A stretch of 64,000 nucleotides of DNA from Labedella phragmitis (GTDB lineage Bacteria; Actinomycetota; Actinomycetes; Actinomycetales; Microbacteriaceae): the NCBI RefSeq assembly GCF_004078635.1, contig NZ_RZNB01000002.1, positions 124,001-188,000 on the forward strand. Reading direction: 5' to 3'. Positions 33,659 through 50,793 of the stretch are shown one piece after another. A program made the translations under genes and the position numbers. Positions within the stretch are counted from its first letter, which is position 1, and each line of letters opens with the position of its first letter. The notes under the pieces were generated by a model. The model did not search any database. It was not told where the DNA came from and saw only the letters and a list, made by a program, of their open reading frames with translations.

Positions 33659-33674
33659 GACGACACAGTGATGC

Positions 33675-33704: not shown

Positions 33705-33758
33705 CACGCCGTCCCGGGCCCCTCGCGGTGGCCGTCGCTTCCCGCGTAGGGTGCTCGC

Positions 33759-34793: not shown

Positions 34794-34807
34794 CCAGCCT
34801 GACCCTC

Positions 34808-34857
34808 CTGAAAATCCCTCGTGTGCACGCGTTTTCGTGCACACGAGGGATTTTCAG
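34808..34857. repeat. 50-bp palindrome 1
   Basis: Two 22-base perfect arms (outer CTGAAAATCCC, inner TCGTGTGCACG) around a six-base loop, 14 bp past the LigD-polymerase stop. It is much richer in A/T than its surroundings and has the core TGTGC at positions 15-19 mirrored by GCACA at 32-36, as in the elements at 35181 and 49983. Confidence 0.9.
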
Positions 34858-34895
34858 TACTTGAGGGGGCGGAGGCGCGGGGTTACCGTGTGGGC

Positions 34896-35510
34896 ATGTG
34901 CCGGAACATCCACACCCTCCACAACTTCGAGCCCGCCGCGACGGACGACGAGGTCCACGCCGCAGCGCTGCAGTACGTGCGCAAGATCAGCGGGACCACG
35001 AAGCCGTCGAAAGCGAATCAGGCGGCGTTCGACCGTGCCGTCGCGGAGATCGCGCACGCGTCGCGTCACCTGCTCGAGGACCTCGTGACGACCGCCTCTC
35101 CGAAGAACCGAGAGGTCGAGGCCGAGAAGCACCGCGAGCGCTCCGCGAAACGTTTCGCGACCGCCTGTCCTTTCCCGCCCATTGATTTGTGGATTGTGCG
35201 CGTAGCTACGCGCACAATCCACAAATCAATGGTCAGGAGAGGACGTCGCCGAGGTCGTAGCGCGCGGGCACCTCGAGTTGCTCGAAGGTGCACGACCGTG
35301 CGTCGCGGTCGGGCCTCCAACGGGAGAACTGCACCGTGTGGCGGAAGCGGTCGCCCTCCATCTGGTCGTAGCGGACCTCGACGACGCGCCTCGGCTCGAG
35401 CCGCACGAACGACACGTCCTTGCTGCCCGAGAACCGCGAGCGCTCCGTCTCACCCCGCACGGGATGGCCGTTCTCGTCGCGGACGACGTCCGGTGCGAGT
35501 TCGTCGATGA
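34896..35510 (+). CDS. DUF2277 protein with an abnormal read-through C-terminus
   Basis: Residues 1-88 (MCRNIHTLHNFEPAATDDEV to SAKRFA) are a complete DUF2277 domain, normally a protein of about 90 residues. No stop codon follows. The frame passes through the 50-bp palindrome at 35181 and then antisense into the ligase gene, ending at 35510 with 204 residues; the last 95 are Arg-rich and low in plausible structure. SAKRFA is encoded by a 16-base palindrome (35144-35159). TACCGT six bases before the ATG suggests a leaderless start. Either the native stop was lost when the palindrome arrived, or the frame truly extends. The function of DUF2277 is unknown. Confidence 0.75.
   Translation: MCRNIHTLHNFEPAATDDEVHAAALQYVRKISGTTKPSKANQAAFDRAVAEIAHASRHLLEDLVTTASPKNREVEAEKHRERSAKRFATACPFPPIDLWIVRVATRTIHKSMVRRGRRRGRSARAPRVARRCTTVRRGRASNGRTAPCGGSGRPPSGRSGPRRRASARAARTTRPCCPRTASAPSHPARDGRSRRGRRPVRVRR
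35181..35230. repeat. 50-bp palindrome 2 (gapless)
   Basis: The 50 bases are perfectly self-complementary with centre TAGCTA and outer ATTGATTTGTGG; with two flanking C and G bases per side it reaches 54 bp. Its right edge abuts the ligase stop codon at 35233. Its outer arms differ from the other two copies, but the offset and sequence of the core TGTGC/GCACA are identical. Confidence 0.9.
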
Positions 35511-36288
35511 GTTCGCGACGCCGTACGGTCGTGAAGGCCGACGCCCCGCCGACGTTCCGCAGGTTCCCCTCCGCGTCGTAGAGACCGAGGAGGAGGGACC
35601 CGACCCCTGTCCCGCTCGCGTGGATGCGATAACCGAGGACGACGACGTCGGCCGATCGGTGGTGCTTCGCCTTGAGCATGACACGCTTGCCGGGGGAGTA
35701 GGCCGCCGCGAGCGGCTTCGCGACGACGCCATCGAGACCGGCCCCCTCGAACTCCTGCAACCAGCGTCTGGCGGTCTCCACATCGCGGGTCGTCTGCGTG
35801 AGATGGACGGGGGCGCTCACATCCACGAGCATCGCCTCGAGAGCCGCACGTCGTTCCGAGAAGGGCGTGTCGAGCAGGCTCTCCCCGTCCGCTTGCAGGA
35901 CATCGAAGGCGATGAACGAGGCCGGTGTCTCCTGAGCGAGTGTCCGGACACGGCTCGCGGCCGGGTGGATGCGCTGCGAGAGCGCCTCCCAATCGAGCTT
36001 CTCCCGGCCCGGTTCGCCGACGCGCACGACGATCTCGCCGTCGACGACGCTGCCGCGGGGGAGGCGCCCGCCGAGGGCCTCGACGAGTTCCGGGAAGTAG
36101 CGCGTGAGCGGCTTCGATCCCCGGCTGCCGAGCTCGACCGTCCCGTCGTCGCCGACGTAGACGATGCTGCGGAAGCCGTCCCACTTCGGTTCGTACGAGA
36201 GCCCGCCGGCGAGGGAACCGGGTTCCGGGACCGCGTCGACGGCCTTCGCGAGCATGGGGGCGATGGGGTCGTCGATCGAGAGCGTCAT
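35233..36288 (-). CDS. ligD: ATP-dependent DNA ligase (LigD ligase domain)
   Basis: A 351-residue ligase. Motif I is EPKWDGFR with the adenylated Lys35; motif III is SFIAFDVLQADG; motif IV is LDGVVAKPL and motif V KHHRSADVVVLGY. An OB-fold C-terminus follows (LVEVRYDQMEGDRFRH-like, here VVEVRYDQMEG). It seals breaks in non-homologous end joining. It is convergent with the DUF2277 frame, and the 50-bp palindrome lies directly at its stop. ATG 36288 follows CCAGGATGG. It is separate from the polymerase gene at 33759. Confidence 0.9.
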   Translation of the reverse strand: MTLSIDDPIAPMLAKAVDAVPEPGSLAGGLSYEPKWDGFRSIVYVGDDGTVELGSRGSKPLTRYFPELVEALGGRLPRGSVVDGEIVVRVGEPGREKLDWEALSQRIHPAASRVRTLAQETPASFIAFDVLQADGESLLDTPFSERRAALEAMLVDVSAPVHLTQTTRDVETARRWLQEFEGAGLDGVVAKPLAAAYSPGKRVMLKAKHHRSADVVVLGYRIHASGTGVGSLLLGLYDAEGNLRNVGGASAFTTVRRRELIDELAPDVVRDENGHPVRGETERSRFSGSKDVSFVRLEPRRVVEVRYDQMEGDRFRHTVQFSRWRPDRDARSCTFEQLEVPARYDLGDVLS

Positions 36289-36464
36289 GCGACCATCCTG
36301 GCCGCGCCGCCTGCCGTGCACCAGCAGTGGCGCTCCGGCGCCCGGCGCGCAAGCCCGACCGCGGCCGTCGGCCCCGCACGTAGACTGGCGGCCCGCTCGC
36401 ACCGCGGGCCCGCGCCCGCCGAGGCCTCGTGCGCGGGCCGTGTCCGCTCGATTCCGGAGGTCCC

Positions 36465-37721
36465 GTGCCCCTCGATCCCTTCTTCGCCGACAGGCTCAAG
36501 ACCCACCGCGCCTACCTCGTCCGCACGGCCCTGCAGGGGTACGCGGAGAAGTGGGGCTGGCCCTGGCTCGCACGTCTCGCCGTGCGGATCGCGCCGCCGC
36601 CTCCTCCCGCGCACGGCGGGAGCGCCGGGAGCGGATCGGGGTCGAGCGCGCGGGCGTCGGCGCGGAGCGGTGGCGGCGCGGCCGCGGAGAAGTCGGGCGT
36701 CGGAACCGCTGTGACGCTCGGCAGCAGGCCGACGGGCGGCGGGGCGGCCGGGCGCGACACGCCCCCCGCGCGCAAGCGCGCGGCCCCCAAGAAGAAGCCG
36801 ACGCGGGCCGCCCACCGTAAAGCCGCGATCGCGTGGGACCGTAAGGAGCTCGCCGCCGTCGGCCGCCCCGGCCCGGATGTCCGCATCGTGGAGCACACCG
36901 TCCCCGTGCCCCGATATCCCGACGTGCGGGTCCGCATCTACTACCCGGAACTCGCCGACGCCGAGCCCGACTTTGAGCCCGACGAAGAACGCGCTCTCGT
37001 CCCGGCGACCCTCGCGTTCTACGGCGGCGGCTTCCGGATCGGCGGGATCGACTACCCGACGACGGACGCGGGCTTCCGGCTCCGAGCCGTCGATGCGGGC
37101 GTCGCGGTCGTCGCGGTCGACTACGCGCTCGCTCCCGAGCACCGGTTCCCGACAGCGGTCGAGCAGGGACATGCGGCTCTCGACTGGCTCGTCCGGGAGG
37201 CCGCCGGACTCGGCATCGACCCCGATCGCCTCGCGATCTCGGGGATCTCGGCCGGTGGGAACATCGCTGCCGCCGTGACGCTCCTCAACCGCGATCGCGG
37301 CGACCTCCCGCTCCGGCTGCAGCTCCTCGAGGTGCCGGTCGTCGACCTCACCGGGCGGCACATCGACCTCGGTCCCGTGCGCGCGATGGGCGTTCCGACG
37401 TTCCTCGCGGTCCGCGAGTTGCGCTCTGTCGCGCGCACGTATCTTCGCGATCCGGGCGAGGCGCGGAATCCGCTCGCGTCGCCGTTGCTCGCCGAGTCCC
37501 ACGCGGGGCTGCCGCCCGCCCACATCCTCACAGCCGAGTACGACGCACTCCGCGGCGAGGGCGCGGCCTACGGCGCGGCGTTACGCGCGGCGGGCGTGGA
37601 GGCGACCGTCGTGCGCTACCTCGGCATGACGCACGACACTCCGGTTTTCCTCGGAGCGGTGCCGGCCGCCATGCGTTGGCATCGCGACGTCGTCTCGGCC
37701 CTGAGGACGCTGCACGACTGA
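36465..37721 (+). CDS. Alpha/beta hydrolase of the hormone-sensitive-lipase family with an N-terminal low-complexity insert
   Basis: A 418-residue protein. The catalytic half has the oxyanion motif FYGGGFRIGG (a variant of HGGG), the nucleophile Ser in GISAGGN, an Asp near ILTAEYDALRGEG and the His in LGMTHDTP. Before it, residues 47-112 form an unusual Ala/Gly/Ser/Lys/Arg-rich segment ending in KKKPTRAAHRK, which may be a flexible or nucleic-acid-adjacent linker. GTG 36465 is preceded by GGAGG. Likely an esterase. TAGACT at 36381 is a candidate -10. Confidence 0.82.
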   Translation: MPLDPFFADRLKTHRAYLVRTALQGYAEKWGWPWLARLAVRIAPPPPPAHGGSAGSGSGSSARASARSGGGAAAEKSGVGTAVTLGSRPTGGGAAGRDTPPARKRAAPKKKPTRAAHRKAAIAWDRKELAAVGRPGPDVRIVEHTVPVPRYPDVRVRIYYPELADAEPDFEPDEERALVPATLAFYGGGFRIGGIDYPTTDAGFRLRAVDAGVAVVAVDYALAPEHRFPTAVEQGHAALDWLVREAAGLGIDPDRLAISGISAGGNIAAAVTLLNRDRGDLPLRLQLLEVPVVDLTGRHIDLGPVRAMGVPTFLAVRELRSVARTYLRDPGEARNPLASPLLAESHAGLPPAHILTAEYDALRGEGAAYGAALRAAGVEATVVRYLGMTHDTPVFLGAVPAAMRWHRDVVSALRTLHD

Positions 37722-37810
37722 GCCGATCCGATCCGCCGACGGCCGTGGTAGCACGGTGACCCCGACGGGGCCAGCCCCGGACATCGTCCGATCCGGCGCC
37801 TAAGGTGGCT

Positions 37811-37827
37811 CTCCCGGGCGCCGGGAG
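37811..37827 (+). promoter_or_regulatory. Hairpin CTCCCGG-GCG-CCGGGAG in the leader of the dehydrogenase gene
   Basis: Seven-base perfect arms around GCG, five bases after a TAAGGT -10-like hexamer (37801-37806) and 25 bp before the start at 37852. It would sit at the transcript 5' end or act as an operator. Confidence 0.4.
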
Positions 37828-37851
37828 GGCCGGCGCGGGAGGAAGCGACTC

Positions 37852-39075
37852 ATGAAGGCGATCGTGTGGCACGGCGTCGGCGACATCCGACTCGACGAGG
37901 TCGACAAGCCGACCATTCAGCATCCCGAGGACGCGATCGTGCGCATCACGCGCAGCGCGATCTGCGGAACGGACCTGCACTTCATCCGCGGCACCATGGG
38001 CCCGATGAAAGAGGGCACGATCCTCGGCCACGAGGCCGTCGGTGTCGTCGAGGAGGTCGGTGAGAACGTCCGCGGGTTCAGCCCCGGAGACCGCGTCATC
38101 ATCGACTCGACCGTGTCGTGCGGCGCGTGCCGCTATTGCCGAGAGGGACACACGGCGCAGTGCGATGTCGCGAACCCCAACGGTCCGTCCGCCGGAACGT
38201 GCTTCTTCGGCGGTCCGGAGTCCACGGGTCCCGTGAACGGCCTGCAGGCCGAGTTCGCGCGCGTTCCGTGGGCTCGCAACACCCTCGTCCCTATCCCGGC
38301 CACCCTGAGCGACGAGGACGCCATCCTGCTCTCCGACATCCTGCCGACGTCGTGGTTCGGTGCCGAGCTCGGCGACATCTCCGCAGGGGACGTCGTCGTG
38401 GTGTTCGGGGCCGGGATCGTCGGTCAGCTCGCGATCGCGTCGGCGTGGAAGATGGGCGCCGCCCGGGTCATCTCCGTCGACGGCATCGACACCCGCTTGG
38501 CGCAGTCGCTCGCGCAGAACGCCGAGATCGTCGACTTCAACGCGGAGGACCCCGTGGCCGCGATCATGTCGCTCACGAACGACATCGGCGCAGACGTCGT
38601 CATCGACGCGGTCGGCGTCGACGCGCAGTCTCCGAAGACGGGTCCGGCGGCCGAGCAGGCCGCGGAGAACGCTGATCAGTTCACGCAGGAGGTCGAACAG
38701 GTGGCGCCCGACGCCGATCCCGACGGGGATACATGGGTGCCGGGAGACGCTCCGACGCAAGCGGCGCAGTGGGCCGTGCAGTCGGTCGCGAAGTACGGTC
38801 GCATCAGCATCATCGGGGTGTACCCTCCGACGCTCACGTCGTACCCGATCGGCGAGGCGATGAACAAGAACCTCACGATCCGGGCGGGCAATTGCGACCA
38901 CCACCGCGTGACCCCTCCTCTTCTCGACCTCGTCGCGACGGGCGCCTTCGACGTGGCGCCCTTCATCACGCAGCACGCCGAGCTCGCCTCGGCGATCGAC
39001 GCCTACGAATCGTTCGACCGGCGCGAGCCGGGGTGGATCAAGACGGTCCTCAGCGTGGCGGACGCGTCAGCCTGA
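37852..39075 (+). CDS. Zinc-dependent alcohol dehydrogenase (MDR superfamily), second copy
   Basis: A 407-residue MDR enzyme related to the gene at 10624: catalytic-zinc Cys38 and His60-Glu61, structural-zinc Cys90, 93, 96 and 104 at the same positions, and the NAD loop VVFGAGIVGQLAI. A roughly 30-residue acidic insert (near AEQAAENADQFTQEVEQ) distinguishes it, falling between the cofactor fold and the C-terminal catalytic part. GGGAGGAAGCGACTC precedes the ATG. It is followed 14 bp later by a quinone-oxidoreductase-like gene, making a two-gene redox operon. Confidence 0.88.
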   Translation: MKAIVWHGVGDIRLDEVDKPTIQHPEDAIVRITRSAICGTDLHFIRGTMGPMKEGTILGHEAVGVVEEVGENVRGFSPGDRVIIDSTVSCGACRYCREGHTAQCDVANPNGPSAGTCFFGGPESTGPVNGLQAEFARVPWARNTLVPIPATLSDEDAILLSDILPTSWFGAELGDISAGDVVVVFGAGIVGQLAIASAWKMGAARVISVDGIDTRLAQSLAQNAEIVDFNAEDPVAAIMSLTNDIGADVVIDAVGVDAQSPKTGPAAEQAAENADQFTQEVEQVAPDADPDGDTWVPGDAPTQAAQWAVQSVAKYGRISIIGVYPPTLTSYPIGEAMNKNLTIRAGNCDHHRVTPPLLDLVATGAFDVAPFITQHAELASAIDAYESFDRREPGWIKTVLSVADASA

Positions 39076-39089
39076 CGAGGAGGAGTTGA

Positions 39090-40034
39090 GTGGCGCACAT
39101 GGCGCTTTCGTGGATCGCACGTGACTTCGGCGGGCTCGACGTCTTCGAGATGGTGGAGTCCGAGGTACCGGAACCCGGCCCCGGCGAGGTGACGATCGAG
39201 GTCCGGGCAGCCGGGATGAACCCCGCCGACTACAAGCACGTGTCGGCGGGTGGAGACCCGGCCGATCTGCCGGTCAGGGTCGGCTACGAGGTGTCCGGCA
39301 CGATCGCGGCGATCGGATCGGATACCGAGATCGCGTCGGGCGGGGGAGCGGTCGGCGACGAGGTGCTCGCCTTCCGGATCCGCGGCGGCTATTCGAGCGC
39401 GGTCACGGTGCCCGCGAAGGACGTCTTCGCAAAGCCGGGGTCCCTCGGCCATCCCGAGGCGGCGAACCTCCTCCTCGCGGGAACGACGGCGGCGGAGATG
39501 CTCGACGTGACGCGCGTCCGCGAGGGCGAGACGATCCTCGTCCACGGAGCGGCCGGCGCCGTCGGGGTGAGCGTCCTGCAACAGGCGCGACTGCTCGGCG
39601 TCCGCGTCATCGGGACGGCGGGCGCGGCCTCCGCGGCCACGGTCGAGCGCTTCGGCGGGGAGCACGTCGAGTACGGCGACGGGCTCGAGACGCGCGTCCG
39701 CGAGCTCGCGGGTGGCCCCGTCGCCGCCGCTCTCGATTGCGTCGGCACGGACGAGGCGATCGACGCCTCGCTCGCGCTGGTCGCCGATCGGGGCCGGATC
39801 GTGAGCATCGCCAACTTCGCCAGGGTGGAGCGCGACGGCTATCGCGTCATCATGGGGCGCTTCCCGGCGAGCGCGGTCTTCCGCGACCGGGTTCGCGCGC
39901 GGCTCGTCGACCTCGCCGGGCAGGGTGAACTCGTCGTTCCCGTCGCCCGCACGTTCCCGCTCGCGGAAGCGCGGGAGGCGATGGCGTTCCTCGCGGAGCA
40001 GCATCCGGGCGGGAAGCTCGCGCTGCTGCCCTAG
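39090..40034 (+). CDS. NADP-dependent quinone oxidoreductase-like MDR protein
   Basis: A 314-residue zinc-free MDR protein. AAGMNPADYKHVSAGG near the start and ILVHGAAGAVGVSVLQQARLLG (nucleotide-binding glycine loop) are typical of quinone oxidoreductases and related enoyl reductases. The zinc-ligand cysteines are absent. GTG 39090 is seven bases after GGAGGAG. It probably reduces quinones or enones with NADPH and shares an operon with the preceding dehydrogenase. Confidence 0.87.
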   Translation: MAHMALSWIARDFGGLDVFEMVESEVPEPGPGEVTIEVRAAGMNPADYKHVSAGGDPADLPVRVGYEVSGTIAAIGSDTEIASGGGAVGDEVLAFRIRGGYSSAVTVPAKDVFAKPGSLGHPEAANLLLAGTTAAEMLDVTRVREGETILVHGAAGAVGVSVLQQARLLGVRVIGTAGAASAATVERFGGEHVEYGDGLETRVRELAGGPVAAALDCVGTDEAIDASLALVADRGRIVSIANFARVERDGYRVIMGRFPASAVFRDRVRARLVDLAGQGELVVPVARTFPLAEAREAMAFLAEQHPGGKLALLP

Positions 40035-40058
40035 GGAGCGGTCATCCACTCGTGCCCG

Positions 40059-41102
40059 TCAGCCGAGGGGAGGGACGTCCTCTCCGGCGACGGGCGGGGG
40101 CGGGGGAGTGCCGTCGCCGAACGGACGACCGCCGAGCTCCTCGCGGCCGTGCGGGGTCAGCCACCCGCGCGGGTCCGGTCCCTTCGGGATGATCCCGGTC
40201 GGATTGATGTCACTGTGGACGACGTAGTAGTGGGCCTTGATCTGGGCGAAGTCGATCGTGTCGCCGAAACCGGGGGTCTGGAACAGGTCGCGCGCGTAGG
40301 CCCACAGCACGGGCATCTCGGTGAGCTTCGAGCGATTGCACTTGAAGTGGCCGTGGTAGACGGCGTCGAAGCGCGCGAGCGTCGTGAACAGGCGCACGTC
40401 GGCCTCCGTGATCGTGTCGCCCACGAGGAAGCGCTGAGACGTCAACCGCTCCTCGAGCCAGTCGAGCCGGTTGAAGAGAGCGTCGTACGCCCGCTCGTAG
40501 GCCTTCTGCGAGCCCGCGAAGCCCGCCTTGTAGACGCCGTTGTTGACGTCGTGGAAGATCTTCTCCGCCACGTCGTCGATCTCGTCGCGGAGAGGCTCGG
40601 GGTAGAGGTCGGGGGCGCCATCGCGATGGAACTCCGTCCACTCCGTCGAGAAGTCGAGCGTGATCCGCGGGTAGTCGTTGGTGACGACGCGGCCGGTGGG
40701 CACATCGACGATGGCCGGAACGGTGATGCCGCGCGGGTAGTCGGGGAACCGGGCGAAGAACGCCTCCTGGAGCCGTTCGATGCCGAGAACCGGGTCGACG
40801 CCGCCCGGATCGAGGTCGAACGTCCAGCTGCGTTCGTCGTGCGTCGGTCCCGGAAGGCCGAGCGAGATGGCCGACTCGAGCCCGAGGAGCCGCCGGACGA
40901 TGACCGCACGGTTGGCCCACGGGCAGGCACGAGCGGCGATCAGCCGGTAGCGGCCGGCCTCGACGGGCCAGCCGTCGCGCCCGTCGCGCGTGATGCGGTC
41001 CTCGATGTAGTTCGTGTCCCGTGTGAACTCGCGCCCGGGCTCGACGTATCGGCCCTGCCCGGTGCCGCCGGTGGTGGTCTCGCGCTTCTCCGTGTCCGTC
41101 AT
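40059..41102 (-). CDS. Glutathione S-transferase family protein, glutathionyl-hydroquinone-reductase-like (Xi class)
   Basis: A 347-residue protein of the ECM4/YqjG type. The N-terminal thioredoxin-like part has the catalytic Cys in AARACPWANRAVI, followed by DGWPVEAGRYRL and TNDYPRIT; the C-terminal helical part has LDWLEERLTSQRFLVGDTITEADVRLFTTLARFDAVYHGHFKCN. In actinobacteria mycothiol probably replaces glutathione as the thiol. ATG 41102 is the likeliest start; ATG 41123 would add seven residues, and neither has an ideal ribosome site. Confidence 0.88.
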   Translation of the reverse strand: MTDTEKRETTTGGTGQGRYVEPGREFTRDTNYIEDRITRDGRDGWPVEAGRYRLIAARACPWANRAVIVRRLLGLESAISLGLPGPTHDERSWTFDLDPGGVDPVLGIERLQEAFFARFPDYPRGITVPAIVDVPTGRVVTNDYPRITLDFSTEWTEFHRDGAPDLYPEPLRDEIDDVAEKIFHDVNNGVYKAGFAGSQKAYERAYDALFNRLDWLEERLTSQRFLVGDTITEADVRLFTTLARFDAVYHGHFKCNRSKLTEMPVLWAYARDLFQTPGFGDTIDFAQIKAHYYVVHSDINPTGIIPKGPDPRGWLTPHGREELGGRPFGDGTPPPPPVAGEDVPPLG

Positions 41103-41297
41103 CCCTCCAGCGTAGATCTGCATTCATGCGCATGGAACGGGTTGCGGTCGCGATACGGGCGACGCCGGCACCGGTGCTCCGATGAACCCGGGGTGAATCG
41201 CCCGGCAATTCCCCGCGAACGACCGTGAGAAGCCCGCCGTCCCCGTCGACCCGCTCATACGATGGCCGCGACGGCACCACCCGACGAGAGGCGTCGA

Positions 41298-42008
41298 ATG
41301 CGGATCCTGAGTTACAACCTCTGGCACCACCGTGCGGCATCGGAGCTGCGGGGCCTCGCGGAACTGCACGACGCCGACGTCGTGTGCGTGCAGGAGGCTC
41401 ACGCCGACGACCTGCCGCGACGCCTCGGCGACTTCGAGCTCGCCGCGACCACGTCGACGGGACTGCTCGGACTCGGGGTCTACGTGCGCCCCGATCGCTT
41501 CGCGGTGACCTTCCACCGCGCCTTCCGGTTGAAGCCGGGCCTCCACGACCTCTTCCTCCTCCGTGACACCGAACGACTGCTGGCCGTGCGCCTCGTCGAT
41601 CGGCGGACGGGAGAACGCGCGACGGTCGCCTCCTTCCACGCCGCGCCGCTCACGGCGACGAACGTCCTCCGCCGGCACCAGATCTCGGCGGCTCACATGC
41701 TGCTCGCCGAGGTGGCGGACGGTGATCCCGTCGTCATGATCGGCGACTTCAACTACCCGCTCTTCCGCTCACGGCTGGAGCGTGTCGCCGCCCTCGACGG
41801 CTTTAGCGTGACCTTCAGCGACGAGCCGACATATCGGCACACGGCCTCGCTCGCGACGCACTTCGACTTCCTCACCTCGAGAGGCATGCGCATCGACGCG
41901 GTGCGGACCCTCCCCGCCGGAGCATCGGACCACCGCCCGATCCTCCTGGACGCCGCGATGGCGTCGGTCGTGGCCGAAGACGCCGACCGCCGCGTGCGGA
42001 CGGTCTGA
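41298..42008 (+). CDS. Endonuclease/exonuclease/phosphatase (EEP) family protein
   Basis: A 236-residue EEP-fold protein. MRILSYNLWHH gives the metal-binding Asn, VVCVQEAHAD the catalytic Glu, VVMIGDFNYP the GDFN active-site motif, and GASDHRPILL the C-terminal Asp-His. Substrate could be DNA, RNA or a phosphoester lipid. A TACGAT -10-like hexamer at 41258 supports ATG 41298 rather than a start further upstream, and GAGAGG precedes it. A paralogue lies at 44839, with closely similar SFHAAPLTATN and SDHRPI segments. Confidence 0.88.
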   Translation: MRILSYNLWHHRAASELRGLAELHDADVVCVQEAHADDLPRRLGDFELAATTSTGLLGLGVYVRPDRFAVTFHRAFRLKPGLHDLFLLRDTERLLAVRLVDRRTGERATVASFHAAPLTATNVLRRHQISAAHMLLAEVADGDPVVMIGDFNYPLFRSRLERVAALDGFSVTFSDEPTYRHTASLATHFDFLTSRGMRIDAVRTLPAGASDHRPILLDAAMASVVAEDADRRVRTV

Positions 42009-42055
42009 GCTCGCGTCGGTCATCGAGGGTCGGCGGGCCGTCAGCCTGCCCGTCG

Positions 42056-42847
42056 TCAGGGGAAGAAGTCCGCGAGGGCGTCGGTGATCGCCGAGCGGAC
42101 CTCGTCGTCCGCGACGGTCGACCGGCCGTCGCCGGGTTGCGGCCCGTAGTCGCCGAAGTCGGCGTGGTTCGCCCCGTCGAGGACCACGAACGTCGCGTCG
42201 TCGGGGAGGAGGTCGGCGTTGGTCTCGATGTCCGTCGGCGTGCTGAGGCCGTCGTTCGTCGCCGAGATGCTCAGGACGTCGAGGCCCGACGCGGAGACGT
42301 CGTTCGCGCAGTAGCTGCCGAAGAGGACGAGACCGGATATCGGGACGCTGTCGTCTCCTGCGGCCATCGCGCACGCCTTCACGCCGCCGAGCGAATGGCC
42401 CCCGACGCTCCACTCGTCGACGCCGGGGACCGCTGCGGTGAAGTCGGACAGGGGCCGGGCATCGAACAATGCGAGGTGGAGCGTCGGCTTCGTGATGACG
42501 ACCGTGACGCCTGACCGCTCCACGACGCCCGAGAGTACGCGAGCGTAGGCGAACGGATCGACGCGGGCGCCGGGCACGAACACGAGCCCCTCGGCACGTC
42601 CAGCCGTGACCGGCTCGAGGACGAACGAGAGATCCGTCTCGGTCACGGTCAGCGCGTCGTCGCGCCACACCTCGAGCGCCGCGGTCCGATCGCCGGCCAT
42701 GACGGTGTTCGCCCACGCGAGGAACACCACGACGACGAGGACGACGACGACAGCCGTGCCGGCGAGCACCCGGAGCAGGACCCGTCGCACGCGGCCGGAC
42801 GGCGTCCTGGGGTCGCTCGTCGTAACGTCCTGCGATGACTGCGACAT
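42056..42847 (-). CDS. Membrane-anchored alpha/beta hydrolase
   Basis: A 263-residue protein. Residues about 18-45 form an N-terminal helix (VRRVLLRVLAGTAVVVVLVVVVFLAW) with basic residues before it, anchoring the enzyme with its catalytic domain outside. The nucleophile Ser is in GGHSLGGVKA, the charge-relay Asp lies in DGLSTPTDIE or nearby, and His in LDGANHADFGDYGP. It resembles the PF12695-type actinobacterial hydrolases that cleave lipids or esters at the envelope. ATG 42847 follows GGGGAG. It is divergent from the MFS gene. Confidence 0.85.
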   Translation of the reverse strand: MSQSSQDVTTSDPRTPSGRVRRVLLRVLAGTAVVVVLVVVVFLAWANTVMAGDRTAALEVWRDDALTVTETDLSFVLEPVTAGRAEGLVFVPGARVDPFAYARVLSGVVERSGVTVVITKPTLHLALFDARPLSDFTAAVPGVDEWSVGGHSLGGVKACAMAAGDDSVPISGLVLFGSYCANDVSASGLDVLSISATNDGLSTPTDIETNADLLPDDATFVVLDGANHADFGDYGPQPGDGRSTVADDEVRSAITDALADFFP

Positions 42848-42946
42848 GCTGGCGGCTCCCCGTCCCCGGAGCCGATGCCCCGGAGACATCCTCCCATCGC
42901 GCTAGCGTAAGGACATGCCATCGCTCCACCGTCCCGACCCGGCCGT

Positions 42947-44143
42947 ATGACCTGGAACCCTCTCGGCCGGGTCGAGCGCCGACGGCGCAGCGACCGCGAA
43001 CCACTCCCGCGTGACGTCCGGGTCCTCGGAGTCGTCGCGTTCTTCGTCATGCTCGGCTTCGGGGTCGTCATCCCGGTGCTCCCGGTCTTCGTCCGCGGTT
43101 TCGGGGTGGGCTACATCGAGGTCGGGGCCGTGGTGTCCGCCTTCGCCGTCATGCGCCTCGTCGCGGCGCCGATCGTCGGCCGACTCGTCGACCGCTGGGG
43201 TGAGCGCGTCGTGCTCGCCGTCGGCATCGCCATCGTCGCCGTGTCGAGCGGAGCCGTGGGCATCGCGACCGACTACCCGCAGGTCCTCGTGCTGCGCGGG
43301 CTCGGCGGCATCGGTTCCGCCATGTTCTCGGTCGCCGCGATGACACTCATCATCGGCGTGACCTCGCCGACTCAGCGTGGCCGGGCCGTGGGCTTCTGGC
43401 AGGGCGGATTCCTCATCGGCGGCATGGCCGGACCCGCAGTCGGCGGACTGCTCACGACGGTCTCGCTCACGGCGCCGTTCTTCTTCTACGCCGCGACGCT
43501 CGCCGTAGCGGGAACGGTCGGCCTCGTCCTGCTCCGCGGCGACGGCCGTTCCGACGAGACGGCCTCGACGACGGACGGAGGCATGCGCTCGGTGCTTCGC
43601 GACCGACGGTTCCAGGTCGCGAGCGTCGCGAACCTCGCGTCGGGCTGGGCGGCGATGGGTGTCAGAGGGGCTCTCGTCCCCGTGCTGGTCGTGGAGGTCC
43701 TCCACCGGGAGCCGGCCTGGACCGGCATCGCCTTCGCGATCGCGGCCGTCGTGCAGACGGTCGCGCTCGGACCAGCCGGTCGATTCGTCGATTCCGTCGG
43801 ACGCCGGCCGGCCATCGTCTGGGCGTTCCTCGTCGGAGCCGTGACGATGATGGCGATCCCCTTCGTGGCGGAGCTCTGGATGCTCATCGCGCTCCTCGTC
43901 GTCTACGCCGTGGCGGCCGCTTTCATCGGCACGGCTCCGTCGGCGCTCATGAGCGACGCGGCCGGCGGTCGCCGCGGCACTCCCGTCGCCGTCTTCCAGG
44001 CGTCGGCCGACGTCGGGTCGATCGTCGGCCCGCTCGCGGCCGGCGCGCTTCTCGACGCGTTCTCCTACCCCGCGGCCTTCGCCTCGGCGGCCGTCCTCAT
44101 GCTCGCGGCGTCGGTGTTCGCCGCGACGCTCAAGCGCGACTAG
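42947..44143 (+). CDS. Major facilitator superfamily transporter
   Basis: A 398-residue membrane protein with twelve hydrophobic helices. The helix 2-3 loop has the MFS motif GRLVDRWGERVVL, and helix 5 has FLIGGMAGPAVGGLL, as in drug/H+ antiporters. The substrate is unknown; multidrug or metabolite export is most likely. TAGCGT at 42903 is a candidate -10 upstream. The start has no clear ribosome site, so the exact N-terminus is uncertain. Confidence 0.88.
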   Translation: MTWNPLGRVERRRRSDREPLPRDVRVLGVVAFFVMLGFGVVIPVLPVFVRGFGVGYIEVGAVVSAFAVMRLVAAPIVGRLVDRWGERVVLAVGIAIVAVSSGAVGIATDYPQVLVLRGLGGIGSAMFSVAAMTLIIGVTSPTQRGRAVGFWQGGFLIGGMAGPAVGGLLTTVSLTAPFFFYAATLAVAGTVGLVLLRGDGRSDETASTTDGGMRSVLRDRRFQVASVANLASGWAAMGVRGALVPVLVVEVLHREPAWTGIAFAIAAVVQTVALGPAGRFVDSVGRRPAIVWAFLVGAVTMMAIPFVAELWMLIALLVVYAVAAAFIGTAPSALMSDAAGGRRGTPVAVFQASADVGSIVGPLAAGALLDAFSYPAAFASAAVLMLAASVFAATLKRD

Positions 44144-44226
44144 CACCTCGACGCGCACGCGGCGGCGGGTTGCCCAGGAGGTCGGGCCGGAGTGGACTGG
44201 AGTTCCGCCTCGAAAGGAGTACCACC

Positions 44227-44736
44227 ATGGCAACGACTCGGGACCTGCTCGTCGATGCGTTCGATCGGATCCGTGACAGCACGACGCGCGTCCTCGACGG
44301 GCTCACGGACGAGGAGCTCACGTTCCGCGCGACCGCGGACGCCAACTCCATCGCCTGGCTCGTCTGGCACCTCACGCGCGTGCAGGACGACCACATCGCC
44401 GACGCCGCCGGCACCGAACAGGTGTGGACGGCGGACGGCTGGTTCGAGGACTTCGGGCTGCCCTTCGACGTCGAGGAGACGGGCTACGGCATGTCGCCCG
44501 ATCAGGTCGGCGCGGTGGGCGGCGTCTCCGCCGAGCGGCTCGCCGCGTACCACGTCGCCGTCCACGACAGGACGGTCGCCTATCTGGGCGGTCTCACCGA
44601 TGCCGAACTGGACCGCATCGTCGACGAGGCCTGGGACCCGCCCGTCACGCTCGCCGTCAGGCTCGTGAGCGTCGTCGCGGACGACCTCCAGCACGCGGGC
44701 CAGGCCGCCTTCGTGCGCGGCCTGCTCCCACGCTGA
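44227..44736 (+). CDS. DinB/DUF664-family protein
   Basis: A 169-residue four-helix-bundle protein. LVWHLTRVQDDHIADA supplies two of the three metal-ligand histidines and DDLQHAGQAAFVRGL the third, as in DinB-like mycothiol-dependent enzymes. In actinobacteria these often act as mycothiol S-transferases or detoxifying enzymes; the substrate is unknown. ATG 44227 has an excellent GAAAGGAG site eight bases upstream. The gene is monocistronic and convergent with an EEP gene. Confidence 0.87.
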   Translation: MATTRDLLVDAFDRIRDSTTRVLDGLTDEELTFRATADANSIAWLVWHLTRVQDDHIADAAGTEQVWTADGWFEDFGLPFDVEETGYGMSPDQVGAVGGVSAERLAAYHVAVHDRTVAYLGGLTDAELDRIVDEAWDPPVTLAVRLVSVVADDLQHAGQAAFVRGLLPR

Positions 44737-44802
44737 CCCGCGCTCGTCCTGTAGCCGATCGGAGTCCGCCCACGGGCGGCTCCGCCGGGACGCCGCGGCG
44801 CG

Positions 44803-44830
44803 CGCCGACGACGTCTGTTCGACGTCGGCG
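44803..44830. terminator. Hairpin between convergent genes
   Basis: CGCCGACG and CGTCGGCG arms around 12 bases lie 8 bp from the stop of the minus-strand EEP gene and 66 bp after the DinB-like gene; no T run follows. Confidence 0.5.
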
Positions 44831-44838
44831 ACGAGCGG

Positions 44839-45513
44839 TCAATCGTCGGCGAGGTGGGCGGTCAGGCTGATGGGGCGGTGATCGGACGCGCCGAAGGGCA
44901 GCACGTCGACGCGCTCGATCATGTAGCCGTTCGACGTCACGAAATCGAAGTAGCCCGAGAAGTACTTGTAGCGGACATAGGTCGGCTCGGTGCTCCGCGT
45001 GAGCTGGAATCCGGCGTCCGTGAGGTGGCGCTCGAGCTTGTTGACGAACCACGGGTAGTTGAAGTCGCCCACCATGAGCGCCGGGGCGCCGGGGGCCAGG
45101 GCGCGCATGCCGGCGTGCGCTCCGGCGATCTGCTTGCGACGCAGCGCGTTCGACGCCGTGAGCGGCGCGGCGTGGAAGTCCCCGACGAGCACCTCGCGGC
45201 CTCGCACCTTGTCGAACAGGCGGGCGGCGAGCAAGCGTTCGTGCGCGGGGCGGAGGACGCGGTCGTGCAGGGATTTGCGGACGGCGAAGACGCGCGTGTC
45301 GAGGATGTCGAAGCGCTCGTCGCTCGCGTACATCGCGAGGCCGAGCCGGTTGTTCTCGGTGGCACCGATGAGCCGCAGCCCGCCCACACTGGGGGCGAGG
45401 GCGGCCGTGTCGCCCTCCTGGATGCAGAGGACATCGATCGCGTGGGTCTCCACGAGATCGGTGAGCTCGCCCACGGCGGCGTGCTTGCGGAGGTTGTAGC
45501 TGACGACCTTCAG
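44839..45513 (-). CDS. EEP family nuclease/phosphatase with an apparent CTG start
   Basis: A 224-residue paralogue of the EEP protein at 41298. The frame opened at CTG 45513 reads LKVVSYNLRKHAAVGEL, matching the conserved EEP N-terminus whose Asn binds metal. The first ATG/GTG/TTG in frame is GTG 45474, which would remove this strand and Asn, while an in-frame TAA lies not far upstream of the CTG. A GAGAAGGG ribosome site is seven to eight bases before the CTG. Later motifs are VLCIQEGD, MVGDFNYPW and GASDHRPI. Either CTG initiates or a mutation has changed ATG/GTG; the rest of the gene is intact. Confidence 0.82.
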   Translation of the reverse strand: MKVVSYNLRKHAAVGELTDLVETHAIDVLCIQEGDTAALAPSVGGLRLIGATENNRLGLAMYASDERFDILDTRVFAVRKSLHDRVLRPAHERLLAARLFDKVRGREVLVGDFHAAPLTASNALRRKQIAGAHAGMRALAPGAPALMVGDFNYPWFVNKLERHLTDAGFQLTRSTEPTYVRYKYFSGYFDFVTSNGYMIERVDVLPFGASDHRPISLTAHLADD

Positions 45514-45675
45514 GAGCGTGCCCTTCTCGAACGGCCAGGCGGAGCATCTCGCGCTCGCGACGAGGCAACGTTACCCCGCCGGGCGCGAGGGCTCGACCGG
45601 TTGCACTCGAGTGTCCGGCGTCCTCACGGCTGACCGAGGGTTTCGAGCCGGTCCGCCCCCGTAACATGTGCCGAG

Positions 45676-46869
45676 ATGAACGCCGTCGTGGACATTGTCC
45701 TTCTCCTTCTCGCGATCGCCGCCCTCGTCGGCGGCTGGCGCCGTGGTGCGCTCGTGACCGCCGCGTCCCTCGTCGGGATCGTCGGCGGGCTGCTCCTGTC
45801 GACGGTGGCGACGCCCGTCGTCGTCGAGTGGGCCGCGGGCTTCGGATGGGCGACGTCGCTCCAGCGCACCGTCGTGGCCGTCGGCGTCCTCCTCCTGTCG
45901 ATCGCGCTCGTCGTCACCGTCCTCTCGGTCCTGGCGCGGCTCCTCAAGCGCGTCATCTCGAAGATCTCGCTCGCTCGCGGACTCGACACGCTCGGGGGAG
46001 CGGCACTCGGACTCCTGACGTGGGCGGCGTCCGTCTGGCTCATCGCGGGCTTCCTCGCCTCGACGGGACTGCCGCCGCTCACCTGGCTCGCGTCGTCCTC
46101 GCGCGTCGTCGCGACCCTCGACTCCCTGGCGCCCGTGCCGTCGAGCACGGCGCTCGGCGCCCTCGACCGCGCGATCGGAAATTCCGGCTTCCCGCGGGTC
46201 TTCGCGGGCGGCGTCGAGAGCATCATCGGGGTCACCGAGCCGGACCCGTCGATCTCGGCGGAGGTCGACGCCGCCTCATCGGGCATCGTCCGCGTGCTCT
46301 CGTCGGCGCCGTCGTGCGGTTCCGACGCGACGGGGAGCGGCTGGGTCGTCGGCTCCGACCGCGTCGTGACGAATGCGCACGTCGTCGGCGGCTCCGACGA
46401 ACTCTTCGTCCAACTCGGCGGGACGGGACGTCCGTTGCCCGCGACGCTCGTCGTCTTCGACCCGCAGCGCGACCTCGCGGTCCTCGCGGTCGCCGGGCTC
46501 GGCGTCGATCCCCTTCCGCTCGGCGACGAGCTGGGAGCCACCGAGTCGGCCTACGTCGCGGGATACCCCGAGAACGGTCCCTACGACGTCGAGCCGGCTC
46601 GCGTCCGGCAGGTGATGCAGGCGACGGGGCTCGACATCTACGAGCGCGACACCGTGACGCGCGAGATCTACTCGCTGCGAAGCATCGTCCGTCCGGGCAA
46701 CTCGGGTGGTCCGCTCCTCGACCCGGCCGGGGACGTCGTCGGCGTCGTGTTCGCACGGTCGACGACGGACGCCGAGACCGGATATGCACTCACTCTCGAC
46801 GAGCTGGCTCCCGTGCTCGACCGTGTGGGTGCCACCGACGAGGTGGCGTCGGGCGATTGCGTTTCCTGA
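45676..46869 (+). CDS. MarP-type membrane serine protease
   Basis: A 397-residue protein with four N-terminal membrane helices of the colicin-V-production type (residues 1-130), then a periplasmic trypsin-like domain. The catalytic triad is His235 (TNAHVV), Asp266 (RDLAVL) and Ser343 (GNSGGPLL). Cysteines 214 and 395 are placed to form the disulfide that regulates the mycobacterial enzyme MarP (Rv3671c), which protects against acid and oxidative stress. TAACAT at 45662 ends eight bases before the ATG, so the mRNA leader is very short. The gene is not linked to others. Confidence 0.9.
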   Translation: MNAVVDIVLLLLAIAALVGGWRRGALVTAASLVGIVGGLLLSTVATPVVVEWAAGFGWATSLQRTVVAVGVLLLSIALVVTVLSVLARLLKRVISKISLARGLDTLGGAALGLLTWAASVWLIAGFLASTGLPPLTWLASSSRVVATLDSLAPVPSSTALGALDRAIGNSGFPRVFAGGVESIIGVTEPDPSISAEVDAASSGIVRVLSSAPSCGSDATGSGWVVGSDRVVTNAHVVGGSDELFVQLGGTGRPLPATLVVFDPQRDLAVLAVAGLGVDPLPLGDELGATESAYVAGYPENGPYDVEPARVRQVMQATGLDIYERDTVTREIYSLRSIVRPGNSGGPLLDPAGDVVGVVFARSTTDAETGYALTLDELAPVLDRVGATDEVASGDCVS

Positions 46870-46942
46870 CACGGGTCTAGGGATCGGACCGGCGGACCGC
46901 CAGCCCCTGCCGCGTCGACGTGGTCGCGGCCAGACTCGAGGG

Positions 46943-47635
46943 ATGACCGATACCGCACACACCGCGACAGCCGTCCTCTTCGACATCGACGGGACTCTCG
47001 TCGACTCCAACTACCTGCACGTGGAGAGTTGGGCGCGCACCTTCCGGGACCTCGAGGTGGACGTCGACACGTGGCGCATCCACCGGGCGATCGGCCTCGA
47101 CTCGTCGAAGCTCCTCGAGGAACTCCTCGGGGATCGTCTGGAGGAACTCGGCGACCGTGCGAAAGACATGCACACCGAGTACTACTCGCGGCTCGTCGAC
47201 CGCTTGCGCCCCTTCCACCGCGCGACCGAGCTGCTCGGCGTCCTCGCCGGTCGGGGGACACGCGTCGTTCTCGCGACGTCGGCACCCGAGGAGGAGCTCG
47301 TCGAGCTGCGCCGCGTCCTCGACGTCGAGGAGAGCCTGCACGCCGTCACGTCCTCCGCCGACGTCGAGACCGCGAAGCCCGAACCGGATGTCATCCGGGT
47401 GGCTCTCGACGAGGCGGATGTGCCTCCCGAGCGCGCCGTCATGATCGGCGACGCCCGGTGGGACGGCATCGCCGCTGAACGCGCCGGTGTGCCCTTCGTC
47501 GGTGTCCTCACGGGAGGGATCTCCGAGGCGGAACTGCGCGAGGCGGGCGCGGTCGCCGTGTATGCGAGCGTCGCCGACCTCCTCGAGAACCTCGAGGGCA
47601 GCCCCGTCGCGCCGCTGCTCGACGCCGACGACTGA
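46943..47635 (+). CDS. HAD-family phosphatase
   Basis: A 230-residue HAD subfamily IA hydrolase. Motif I is VLFDIDGTLVDS with two Asp, motif II is LATSAPEEELVELRR, motif III Lys in ETAKPEPDV and motif IV MIGDARWDGIAA. The helical cap lies between motifs I and II. It resembles phosphoglycolate-phosphatase-like proteins; the substrate is unknown. A weak CGAGGG site precedes the ATG; TAGGGAT upstream could be a -10. Confidence 0.87.
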   Translation: MTDTAHTATAVLFDIDGTLVDSNYLHVESWARTFRDLEVDVDTWRIHRAIGLDSSKLLEELLGDRLEELGDRAKDMHTEYYSRLVDRLRPFHRATELLGVLAGRGTRVVLATSAPEEELVELRRVLDVEESLHAVTSSADVETAKPEPDVIRVALDEADVPPERAVMIGDARWDGIAAERAGVPFVGVLTGGISEAELREAGAVAVYASVADLLENLEGSPVAPLLDADD

Positions 47636-47739
47636 TCCGCACCGAGCGACGGCCTCGACGCGACGGTGTCGAGGATGCACCGAGGGGGTCGCGGAGGAAT
47701 TATCCTGAATCTTCGGCTCGATCCGCACCGCGGAGGGCC

Positions 47740-49971
47740 GTGCACCCGCTCGGACGAAGGACCGCCACGATTCTCGATAGACTCGCCGCCCAATCGCGGC
47801 TCGACACCATCCGCTCGACGGTCGCCGATCTCGTCGCCTCGGAGAGCGCCCGCCTCGCGACGGTGCTCCGCGAGAGCGGCGACGCCGTCGAGCTCTGGGA
47901 CCGCGATGCCCGCGCCGACCACCACCGCAAGCAGCTGAGCCGGTTCGAGAACGCCGGCGGCGGCCTCCTCTTCGGCCACCTCGGGATGCGCGACGGCGCC
48001 GAGTGGTACATCGGGCGTATGGGTCTCTTCGACCCGGAGACGCGGGACCCGCTGCTCGTCGACTGGCGCGCGCCGCTTTCGCGGGCCTTCTACACGGCGA
48101 CGCCGCTCCACCCCCAGGACGTGGCGGCCCGTTCGACGATCGGGACGCGCGGCTGGCGCGTCTCGAGCGTCGTGACCGAGGACCTCGCCGCTGGGGGCGA
48201 AGGCTCCACGACGGGGCCGTCCGCCCTCATGGCGGCGGTGTCCCACCACCGTACCGACCGCATGTCCGACATCGTCGCGACGATCCAGGGCGAGCAGGAT
48301 CGCATCATCCGGGCGGGACTGCGGGGAGCGCTCGTCGTGCAGGGCGGCCCGGGGACGGGCAAGACCGCCGTCGCGCTCCACCGCGCCGCGTACGTGCTCT
48401 ACGAGCACCGCGACCGCCTCGCTCGCGAAGGGGTTCTCATCGTGGGCCCGAATCCCGACTTCCTCGGCTACATCAGCGAGGTGCTCCCGTCCCTCGGTGA
48501 GGACAGCGTCGTGCTCACGTCGCTCCACACCCTCCTTCCCGGCGTCGTCGCGCACGGTGAGGACGAGCGCGACGTCGCGGAGGTGAAGGGGCGCCTCGAC
48601 CTCGCGAAGGCGATCGACAGCGCGGTCCGTCGGCGGGAGATCGCCGTGCGCGCCCCGTACGTCGTGACGCTCGAGTCCGAGCAGACGGTGCGGATCGAGA
48701 GCAAGGAGCTCGCGGCGCTCCGCACGCGGATGCGCCGGAGCCGCCGGTCGCACAACGAGGCGAGACCCGTCTTCGAGCGGCTCTTCCGCGAGCTCGTGGC
48801 GCGGATGCTGTTGTCGACGGCGGGTCGCTCCGTCGAGGTCGACGTCGATCAGGAGGACGTCGAGGACTTCGCCGAGGAGCTGCAGCTCGACGACCGGATC
48901 GCCGCCGCGATCGACGAGCTGTGGCCGATCGTGTCGCCGGAGGAGCTCGTCTCCGAGCTCCTGTCCGACGAGAAGATCCTCGCGGCGTGCGCCCCGATGC
49001 TCTCGGACGACGACCGCGCGATCATCGTCCGCCCCGCGTCGTCGGGATGGACGGCTTCCGATATCCCGCTCCTCGACGAGGCGGCGTCGCTCCTGGGGGA
49101 GGACCCGCGGCCGGGGATGCGTGCGCGCGCTCGCGAGCGGGCAGAGCAGGAACGGGAGCTCGAGTACGCGCAAGGTGTGCTCGATCTCTACTCCGACACG
49201 ACGACGGACGACGACGGCACGCGAGCATCGGGGGTGACGGCCGAGCAGCTCGCGGCGCGGCAGCGCCAGGACGAGCGCAGCACGGTCGCGGAGCGCGCCG
49301 AGGGCGAGGTGGGGTGGACCTACGGCCACGTCATCGTCGACGAGGCCCAGGAACTGACGCCCCTCGCGTTGCGAGCGGTCCTCCGCCGCTGCCCGTCGCG
49401 GTCGCTCACGCTCGTCGGAGACATCAATCAGAGTTCGGCCGCGCACGGCGCCGATTGGGACACGCTGTTGCGTCCGCAGTTGCGGTCGTACACGCGTGAG
49501 GAACTCACCGTCAACTACCGCACGCCCTCGGAGATCATGGACCTCGCGGCGCGCGTGCTCGGGCACATCGATGCGACGCAGAAGGCGCCGACGTCGATCC
49601 GTTCGACGGGCGAGCAGCCCGAGATCCTCCGCGTGCCGTACGACGCCATGTCGGACGCCATCGCCGAGCGAGCCGAGGCGTTCCTCACGGAGTCCGAGGG
49701 CACGTTCGCCGTGATCGGGGACGCCGAGCTCCTGCCGCGGTTGCGTTCAGCTGTGTCGGCGCTGCCGCCCGGTTTGAGCGAACGGGTCTGGTTCGGTTCG
49801 CCGCGCGCCGCGAAGGGCCTCGAATTCGACGTCGTCGTGCTCGTCGAACCCGGCTGGCGATCCGAGCGCGGAGTCGCGGAGACGCGTGAACTCTACGTCG
49901 CGCTCACCCGGGCCACCCAGCGGCTCTCGATCCTCCACTCGACCCCGCTCCCACCCGAACTCACTCCCTGA
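47740..49971 (+). CDS. helD: HelD-like RNA polymerase-associated helicase (UvrD/PcrA-type)
   Basis: A 743-residue superfamily 1 ATPase of the HelD group. The N-terminal arm is followed by Walker A GGPGTGKT (202-209). Walker B is VIVDEAQELTP; later motifs are LVGDINQSSAAHG and LTVNYRTPSEIMD; and VALTRATQRL is motif VI. HelD frees stalled RNA polymerase from DNA and can give rifamycin tolerance in actinobacteria. The GTG at 47740 follows GGAGGG. The closest alternative is a UvrD-like DNA helicase, but the large central insert and N-terminal arm favour HelD. A 50-bp palindrome lies just after the stop. Confidence 0.87.
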   Translation: MHPLGRRTATILDRLAAQSRLDTIRSTVADLVASESARLATVLRESGDAVELWDRDARADHHRKQLSRFENAGGGLLFGHLGMRDGAEWYIGRMGLFDPETRDPLLVDWRAPLSRAFYTATPLHPQDVAARSTIGTRGWRVSSVVTEDLAAGGEGSTTGPSALMAAVSHHRTDRMSDIVATIQGEQDRIIRAGLRGALVVQGGPGTGKTAVALHRAAYVLYEHRDRLAREGVLIVGPNPDFLGYISEVLPSLGEDSVVLTSLHTLLPGVVAHGEDERDVAEVKGRLDLAKAIDSAVRRREIAVRAPYVVTLESEQTVRIESKELAALRTRMRRSRRSHNEARPVFERLFRELVARMLLSTAGRSVEVDVDQEDVEDFAEELQLDDRIAAAIDELWPIVSPEELVSELLSDEKILAACAPMLSDDDRAIIVRPASSGWTASDIPLLDEAASLLGEDPRPGMRARARERAEQERELEYAQGVLDLYSDTTTDDDGTRASGVTAEQLAARQRQDERSTVAERAEGEVGWTYGHVIVDEAQELTPLALRAVLRRCPSRSLTLVGDINQSSAAHGADWDTLLRPQLRSYTREELTVNYRTPSEIMDLAARVLGHIDATQKAPTSIRSTGEQPEILRVPYDAMSDAIAERAEAFLTESEGTFAVIGDAELLPRLRSAVSALPPGLSERVWFGSPRAAKGLEFDVVVLVEPGWRSERGVAETRELYVALTRATQRLSILHSTPLPPELTP

Positions 49972-49982
49972 CCTCCCCCCCC

Positions 49983-50032
49983 CTGAAAATCCCGAATGTG
50001 CGTGAATACTCGTGCACATTCGGGATTTTCAG
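49983..50032. repeat. 50-bp palindrome 3
   Basis: Two arms with outer CTGAAAATCCC and inner GAATGTGC around a 12-base loop, between the helD stop (49971) and the convergent AIM24 stop (50046). Compared with the element at 34808 the length and outer 11 bases are identical, and bases 12-14 (TCG there, GAA here) are changed together with their pairing partners (CGA there, TTC here). Confidence 0.9.
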
Positions 50033-50045
50033 GGGGAGGAGAGGG

Positions 50046-50717: not shown

Positions 50718-50793
50718 GGAGCTCCCGATCGCGTTCGGTGCGGCGGCGTGAGTGGCCGACGGCGGTGTCGAGAGCGACTGTAGCAGGGCTCCT

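Follow-up and report, generated by a model that had tools for sequence, protein, structure and literature searches.

Dispersed gene-end palindromes in Labedella phragmitis and a nuclease-like candidate partner gene bracketed by one of their families

Repetitive extragenic palindromes (REPs) are short palindromes dispersed near the 3' ends of genes, convergent genes included, and are served by a partner gene that is present in one copy, has copies of its own repeat on both sides and evolves in line with the species tree (PMC3733652; PMC3116915; PMC8266576). In the reports consulted, transposases of the HuH Y1 tyrosine type (REP-associated tyrosine transposases, RAYTs) are the partners dedicated to REP-like repeats, and for some classes of repeat no partner is known. 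Here we analyse three 50-base palindromes, named 34808, 35181 and 49983 after their first positions, in a 64,000-nucleotide stretch of Labedella phragmitis, a Labedella-type member of the Microbacteriaceae (positions 124001-188000 of contig 2 of the 3.52-Mb genome G000; hereafter the window). Copies 34808 and 49983 are members of one dispersed family, A, and copy 35181 of another, B; a gene elsewhere in the genome lies between two palindromes of family A.

In their dispersal near gene 3' ends and in the bracketed partner gene, the Labedella elements resemble REP/RAYT systems. They differ in being longer (about 50 nt), in lacking a GTAG or CGTC end tag and in their partner, which has AbiEi and PD-(D/E)XK-like halves; no Y1 transposase was found, the RAYT family (PF01797) being matched in none of the four Labedella genomes and its control being positive in 5 of 14. 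CGTC-tagged REPs have been described as dispersed palindromes without a dedicated transposase (PMC3733652), whereas a candidate partner is present here and the CGTC tag is absent. AbiEi antitoxins and DUF559/REase_MTES_1575 proteins provide the domain matches seen among the partner homologues, which differ from both in uniting the two halves in one protein and in having a gene that often stands between matching palindromes. In the open-access literature, with subscription papers mostly outside this scope, no title or abstract concerned an AbiEi-nuclease protein bracketed by matching palindromes, and among the matches listed for Labedella these repeats are not described.

DNA uptake sequences have species dialects. 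Their likeness to the present elements lies in the inverted motifs at gene ends, where they form terminators (PMC2267715). By contrast, the longer half-motifs of Labedella lie mostly inside palindromes and number tens of copies: by exact matching, which misses palindromes with unlike halves, the reverse complement lay within 60 nt for GATGGTGCGCG in 14 of 17 cases and for CTGAAAATCCC in 10 of 13. The picture is less clear for the shorter core halves (TGTGCACGA 4/17, TGTGCACG 6/45, GGTGCGCGTA 8/14).

Two palindrome families and their turnover at gene ends

A sequence-only reading of the window had taken the three palindromes as one family with an invariant TGTGC core. Its coordinates, the 50-base length and the low GC content (0.52, 0.44 and 0.46 for 34808, 35181 and 49983, against 0.707 for the window) proved exact on recheck, as did TGTGC at bases 15-19 and GCACA at bases 32-36 in all three copies and the identity of the outer 11 bases of 34808 and 49983. 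In the list of inverted repeats of the window the three come first, with 22, 25 and 22 of 25 Watson-Crick pairs and folding energies 10.3, 12.7 and 12.0 standard deviations below dinucleotide shuffles. The single family did not survive: 35181 is a copy of family B, whose aligned members carry GGTGC in 14 of 15 cases, and the TGTGC of 35181 is a compensated change. The pattern TGTGC-N12-GCACA has 11 genomic matches, compared with 3 when it is reversed as a control, and family B surfaced with a relaxed core pattern. The consensus of family A is CTGAAAATCCC-nnn-TGTGCACG-n6-CGTGCACA-nnn-GGGATTTTCAG and that of family B is ATTGATTTGGCGATGGTGCGCGTA-nn-TACGCGCACCATCGCCAAATYAAT; both are symmetric and start with CTGAAAA and ATTGAT, respectively. 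Covariance models, with at most 40 candidates scored per genome and the weakest places counted without individual inspection, locate at least 22 distinct A and at least 20 distinct B places in this genome, so that the window copies are not unique in it.

The paired covariation noted from the letters holds in both families. In the A alignment 17 cells are changed on both sides (shuffled mean 5.1) and in the B alignment 14 (shuffled mean 6.2), in either case also above slid controls; since related copies can exceed shuffles without selection, this is support rather than proof of a selected hairpin. Unpaired cells amount to 7.7 percent in A and 5.5 percent in B, and wobble pairs are present too. 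Rfam returned 13 matches up to E 1 (12 microRNA families and one snoRNA family), all of them under the gathering scores of those families; they were treated as generic hairpins.

The elements sit at gene ends. Across 824 kb, made up of the window and 38 stretches of contig 1, the centres of 18 of the 19 elements fall within 60 nt of a gene 3' end; 2000 random intergenic sets average 1.9 and never exceed 9, a contrast that is overstated since the gene caller, a simple codon-usage script, misses genes (the DUF2277 gene of the window among them) and the random control thus takes in uncalled coding DNA. A gene 5' end, too, is no more than 60 nt away in five of the 19 (2.8 on average at random), and the same caller assigns 10 elements to convergent, 9 to co-directional and none to divergent junctions; one weak B-like hairpin (35 bits) was excluded from the element lists of the gene-end and junction comparisons. 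Within the window, where the earlier reading had likewise placed the copies at gene ends, 34808 begins 14 nt past the stop codon of a LigD primase-polymerase gene, 49983 begins 11 nt past that of a UvrD-like helicase gene, and 35181-35230, between a DUF2277 gene (+) and a ligase gene (-), finishes 2 nt ahead of the ligase stop.

The left flanks of 37 A copies from three species are rich in C (0.67) and poor in G (0.06), compared with C 0.41 and G 0.35 at convergent junctions without A or B elements (n=95). The flanks of A elements show no covariation and no GTAG- or CGTC-like consensus. Extended arms were considered as an explanation, and since the C-rich and G-rich flanks show no better pairing within than between copies, they were treated as composition.

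In the sister species G001, G002 and G003, the same junctions usually hold a palindrome, often of a different family. The earlier reading had named, as evidence against a family, unrelated hairpins without core conservation at the same sites of sister strains. The first site does not fit that picture, as G002 and G003 carry A-type palindromes at the 34808 site with the same core and different arms (G001 has a degenerate one), but several other sites do hold a different family. At the 35181 site, G001 and G002 have a palindrome of different sequence and G003 lacks both gene and palindrome; at the 49983 site, G003 has an A-type and G002 a B-like element (C2:253497, 44.9 bits with the family B model R3), and none was seen in G001. 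In the stretches matching 360 kb of contig 1, G003 holds 10 elements, of which 7 map to G000 and 6 of these meet an A or B element, and G002 holds 16, of which 12 map and 9 meet A or B. Six of the seven B sites of the 360 kb map to the sisters, with A at four of them in G003, and A at three and B at two in G002. At C1:811106 an apparent truncated A relic adjoins a B copy and both G003 and G002 have A at this site, so that B looks like the newcomer there. At C1:840412, 88 nt of G003 that comprise an A element and its flanks and are bounded by GA...GA are missing from G000, in an alignment otherwise different by one base. Close by, 1400 nt of G000 (C1:838102-839501) are 99.7 percent identical to G003, while other stretches compared are about 85 percent identical, which points to a likely recent exchange between the two species.

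The A model matched 10 and the B model 6 of 149 genomes, the own genome included. Of 398 Microbacteriaceae genomes, four contain the strict core TGTGCRCG-N6-CGYGCACA, namely G000 (8), G003 (7), G366 (17) and G397 (1); it is absent from G001, G002 and seven other genomes of the genus of G366. An exact-pattern scan of named genomes, with a pattern that was too strict, returned two stretches, both of Labedella populi. The G366 family (L178, L181, L183-L201) joins the TGTGCRCG core to arms unlike those of Labedella (ACGTTCCGGC..) and has asymmetric ends. Other apparent families of gene-end palindromes are present in Labedella as well (L062-L079, L131-L170), represented by TTGTCACGAATC.., GCGTTTGCGCC.. 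and GTGCGGGCTTCGG...

A candidate partner gene and its protein

The gene in question (contig 15, 89808-90833, 343 amino acids) lies between the A palindromes C15:89759 and C15:90848, and its locus is collinear in four Labedella species. The earlier reading had suggested a search for a RAYT-like transposase or a DNA-binding partner; a dedicated-looking gene bracketed by A palindromes was indeed found, but it is not a RAYT. Homologues at E ≤ 0.001 are present in 38 of 42 genomes chosen by the analyst. At a first look, a palindrome stood near either end in 22 of 30 homologue loci compared with 158 of 906 control genes. Palindromes on both sides that match each other (score of at least 0.7) were then counted at 21 of 48 distinct homologue loci, two of the initial 50 having been dropped (L242, the same place as L214, and L244, identical to L243 in 4912 of 4912 bases); L207, an apparent match at first look that later fell outside the distance limits, was excluded. 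Among 550 Labedella control genes with lengths of 800-1400 nt, 19 have palindromes on both sides and none has a matching pair. Five of six distant homologues of G047 and G137 (27-32 percent identity) are also bracketed by matching pairs, which brings the combined count to 26 of 54 distinct loci; Labedella contributes 6 of its 14 loci and the other genomes 20 of 40. One palindrome of each matching pair lies just upstream of the partner gene and the other after it, at a centre-to-centre spacing of 1021-1247 nt (median 1094.5, 26 pairs). As an internal control, the homologue loci contain 16 further palindrome pairs at distances of 800-1400 nt, and in none of these do the two members match. The gene family is thus bracketed by matching palindromes in many lineages, and the association of palindromes with a non-RAYT, nuclease-like partner is well supported.

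The bracketing palindromes differ between homologues and in some cases resemble dispersed copies in the same genome. A dispersed 61-nt family of G047, a genome of another genus, was found before the partner and resembles the palindromes of one homologue there at 0.85-0.87 (four copies compared), against 0.34-0.39 for the other partner flanks of G047. In G001, the partner palindromes score 0.90 to two copies of their own genome, compared with 0.45-0.51 to A copies from the other species and 0.53 when set against B, and the type occurs twice in 400 kb of G001. The partner flanks of G002 and G003 score lower to the G000 copies (0.69 and 0.66). In Collinsella aerofaciens, which belongs to another class, the homologue is bracketed by arrays of the palindromic motif CTGTTACAGATCGAGA. 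Allowing up to 3 mismatches, this motif occurs 24 times in the 50 kb around the homologue (reversed control 0) and once in 200 kb elsewhere in the record (control 4), so that it is local there. In this record (NZ_OY725717.1, 402-423 kb; L279, L283), which bears the label of a plasmid but has many ribosomal protein genes, two places close to the homologue hold such arrays as well.

The homologues point to a protein of two halves. Among 45 aligned members (L231, L238, L241, L242 and L244 were left out as long, truncated or duplicate), Pfam recognises AbiEi_4 in 21, REase_MTES_1575 in 3 and DUF559 in 3, and the member of this genome has no Pfam match. The MTES_1575 domain has been described as a Vsr-type restriction endonuclease (PMC3710099). 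One PADLOC model for AbiEi matches 44 of the 45 members, the one of this genome at 3e-6. An AlphaFold2 model of 319 residues (mean pLDDT 92.4) retrieved two structures with Foldseek at E ≤ 0.001, namely the AbiEi antitoxin 6y8q (2e-5, best) and Rv2827c (1zel, 2.3e-4); Vsr structures matched poorly (E 1.5-1.9), and a profile search of solved structures gave nothing under E 0.3. E206, D238 and E249 are invariant in all 45 members and K255 is found in 42, a set which we take, from what is known of the family, to be the PD-(D/E)XK catalytic residues. Taken together, the model and the conserved residues suggest that an AbiEi-type winged-helix half is joined to a PD-(D/E)XK (DUF559/Vsr-like) half in a nuclease-like protein, a predicted nuclease.

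Three further observations concern partner-like genes and palindromes of their type. A truncated homologue in G000 (C1:957532-957993) adjoins a TTGTCACATATC-type palindrome and is perhaps the relic of another family's partner. The palindrome type that brackets the homologue of L248 occurs twice in L199 of G366, at about 1120 and 2502, a place for which the profile search lists no homologue. On contig 11, a small gene that likewise stands between two A palindromes gave no domain match.

A proposed cut-and-copy role and its rivals

From our point of view it is probable, if by no means certain, that the palindromes are REP-like dispersed elements and that family A has a dedicated AbiEi plus PD-(D/E)XK partner which would act on them by binding, cutting and copying. 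In such a scheme, the protein would bind the conserved core as a dimer through its winged-helix half and would cut or nick at or near the palindromes with its nuclease half, and repair would carry a copy of the palindrome to gene ends that bear a hairpin; between convergent genes the element could serve as a two-way 3'-end hairpin. We infer these activities, the mobilisation and any effect on RNA 3' ends or termination alike. The sequence-only reading had offered mobile repeats of the REP type, conserved RNA hairpins or sites recognised by a protein of their own. It is supported by the spread of the copies over the genome, their place at gene ends, their covariation, their turnover at orthologous junctions and a partner-like gene, but the partner is not a RAYT, the families are two, and mobility would have to be deduced. 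One could further speculate, tentatively, that AbiEi-PD-(D/E)XK proteins form an Actinomycetota class of palindrome-propagating proteins unrelated to RAYTs, which work by cut-and-copy, whose cognate palindromes change with the protein and whose families replace each other. If this were true, part of the 3'-end hairpins of the genome would be supplied by a tamed selfish system, and a second, unrelated class of partner would imply more than one origin of REP-like systems. The frequent AbiEi plus DUF559-like group would gain a testable role, and its protein-palindrome pairs would provide a natural series for the study of how recognition co-evolves.

Several points weigh against the proposed role. 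At the thresholds used, 28 of the 54 distinct loci have no matching pair, among them the one further homologue found in this genome (35 percent identical), which lies elsewhere. Tsukamurella (0/3) and a phage-derived fragment (0/1) gave no matching pair either. No partner was found for family B, and the TGTGC-core family of G366 lacks one among the homologue loci of that genome. The match of partner palindromes to dispersed copies of the own species can be marginal (0.76 against 0.75 and 0.73 in G000; 0.87 against 0.86 and 0.82 against 0.81 in G002/G003). The 50 homologue loci combined the best 30 of the search with 20 picked by the analyst from the list, the 0.7 cut-off was chosen after 30 loci had been viewed, all 550 control genes come from Labedella, and the within-locus control is small (16 pairs). 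No insertion was caught in the act either, as the clean presence/absence pair of 88 nt fits a deletion equally well.

Two other readings would leave the partner without a role in the spread of the palindromes. AbiEi proteins bind inverted repeats at their own promoter. The palindromes could accordingly be operators or self-marks of the AbiEi-nuclease protein, used in autoregulation or defence, with the other copies kept for regulation or nucleoid structure. The match of the N-terminal half to AbiEi antitoxins (PADLOC, 6y8q) and the palindrome just upstream of the gene in each pair speak for this; we nevertheless hold it to be unlikely, given the second palindrome after the gene, the dispersed copies at 3' ends (18 of 19) and the families that turn over between species at fixed junctions. 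The palindromes could also be ordinary bidirectional terminators that stay alike through gene conversion and selection for the hairpin, with the nuclease gene incidental. Gene-end position, the absence of divergent junctions among the 19, the A/T tracts outside the stable stem in family A, the covariation and the conservation of positions in sister species are all compatible with terminators, but a terminator has no need of a conserved core and conserved outer bases, some convergent junctions manage with unrelated GC-rich hairpins, and one gene family is bracketed by matching palindromes in several genera. Moreover, the B copy of the window has no T tract, and a scan for intrinsic terminators (a stem with five or more T among the next 8 bases), which is blind to stem-paired T tracts such as the TTTT inside the long stem of the A copies, found none in 33500-51500, where shuffles give a mean of 3.5. 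We therefore regard this explanation as distinctly improbable.

A narrower alternative concerns the covariation only and could hold alongside any of the other readings. Template-switch correction of long imperfect palindromes is a known phenomenon, and the compensated changes in the arms could stem from such perfecting of imperfect palindromes instead of from selection on a hairpin. Copy 35181, which is perfect over 50 bases and compensates its differences from the family consensus, would be the expected product, but the wobble pairs and unpaired cells that remain in both alignments speak against a thorough correction, and we consider this origin of the covariation possible yet rather doubtful. 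The preferred reading, in which the AbiEi-nuclease protein propagates the palindromes, is compatible with either origin.

Local setting of the window copies

The palindromes and their neighbouring genes are collected in the table below.

Table 1. Palindromes, one flank and adjoining genes, in window positions
Feature	Position	Strand	Remark
Family A palindrome, copy 1	34808..34857	.	75.1 bits with model R2 (copy in the training set of the model)
Family B palindrome, perfect over 50 bases	35181..35230	.	73.4 bits with model R3 (copy in the training set)
Family A palindrome, copy 2	49983..50032	.	Convergent UvrD-like helicase (+) / AIM24 (-) junction
Left flank of A element 49983, C-rich, G-poor	49968..49982	.	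G-rich right flank at 50033-50047
LigD primase-polymerase domain gene, preceding copy 34808	33759..34793	+	PF21686
DUF2277 gene, between the first two palindromes	34896..35168	+	PF10041
ATP-dependent DNA ligase gene, convergent to the B copy	35233..36402	-	PF01068
UvrD-like helicase gene, upstream of copy 49983	47740..49971	+	PF00580/PF13361/PF13538
AIM24-domain gene, convergent to copy 49983	50046..50975	-	PF01987

A nucleotide search of plasmids with positions 33000-36500 of the window returned 116 records, and those listed cover the ligase, CBS-domain or DUF2277 genes or unannotated DNA. In the DUF2277 gene, TGT stands at 35166-35168 where G001 and G002 have a TGA stop; the frame (34896-35510) thus reads through the B palindrome into the antisense strand of the ligase gene.

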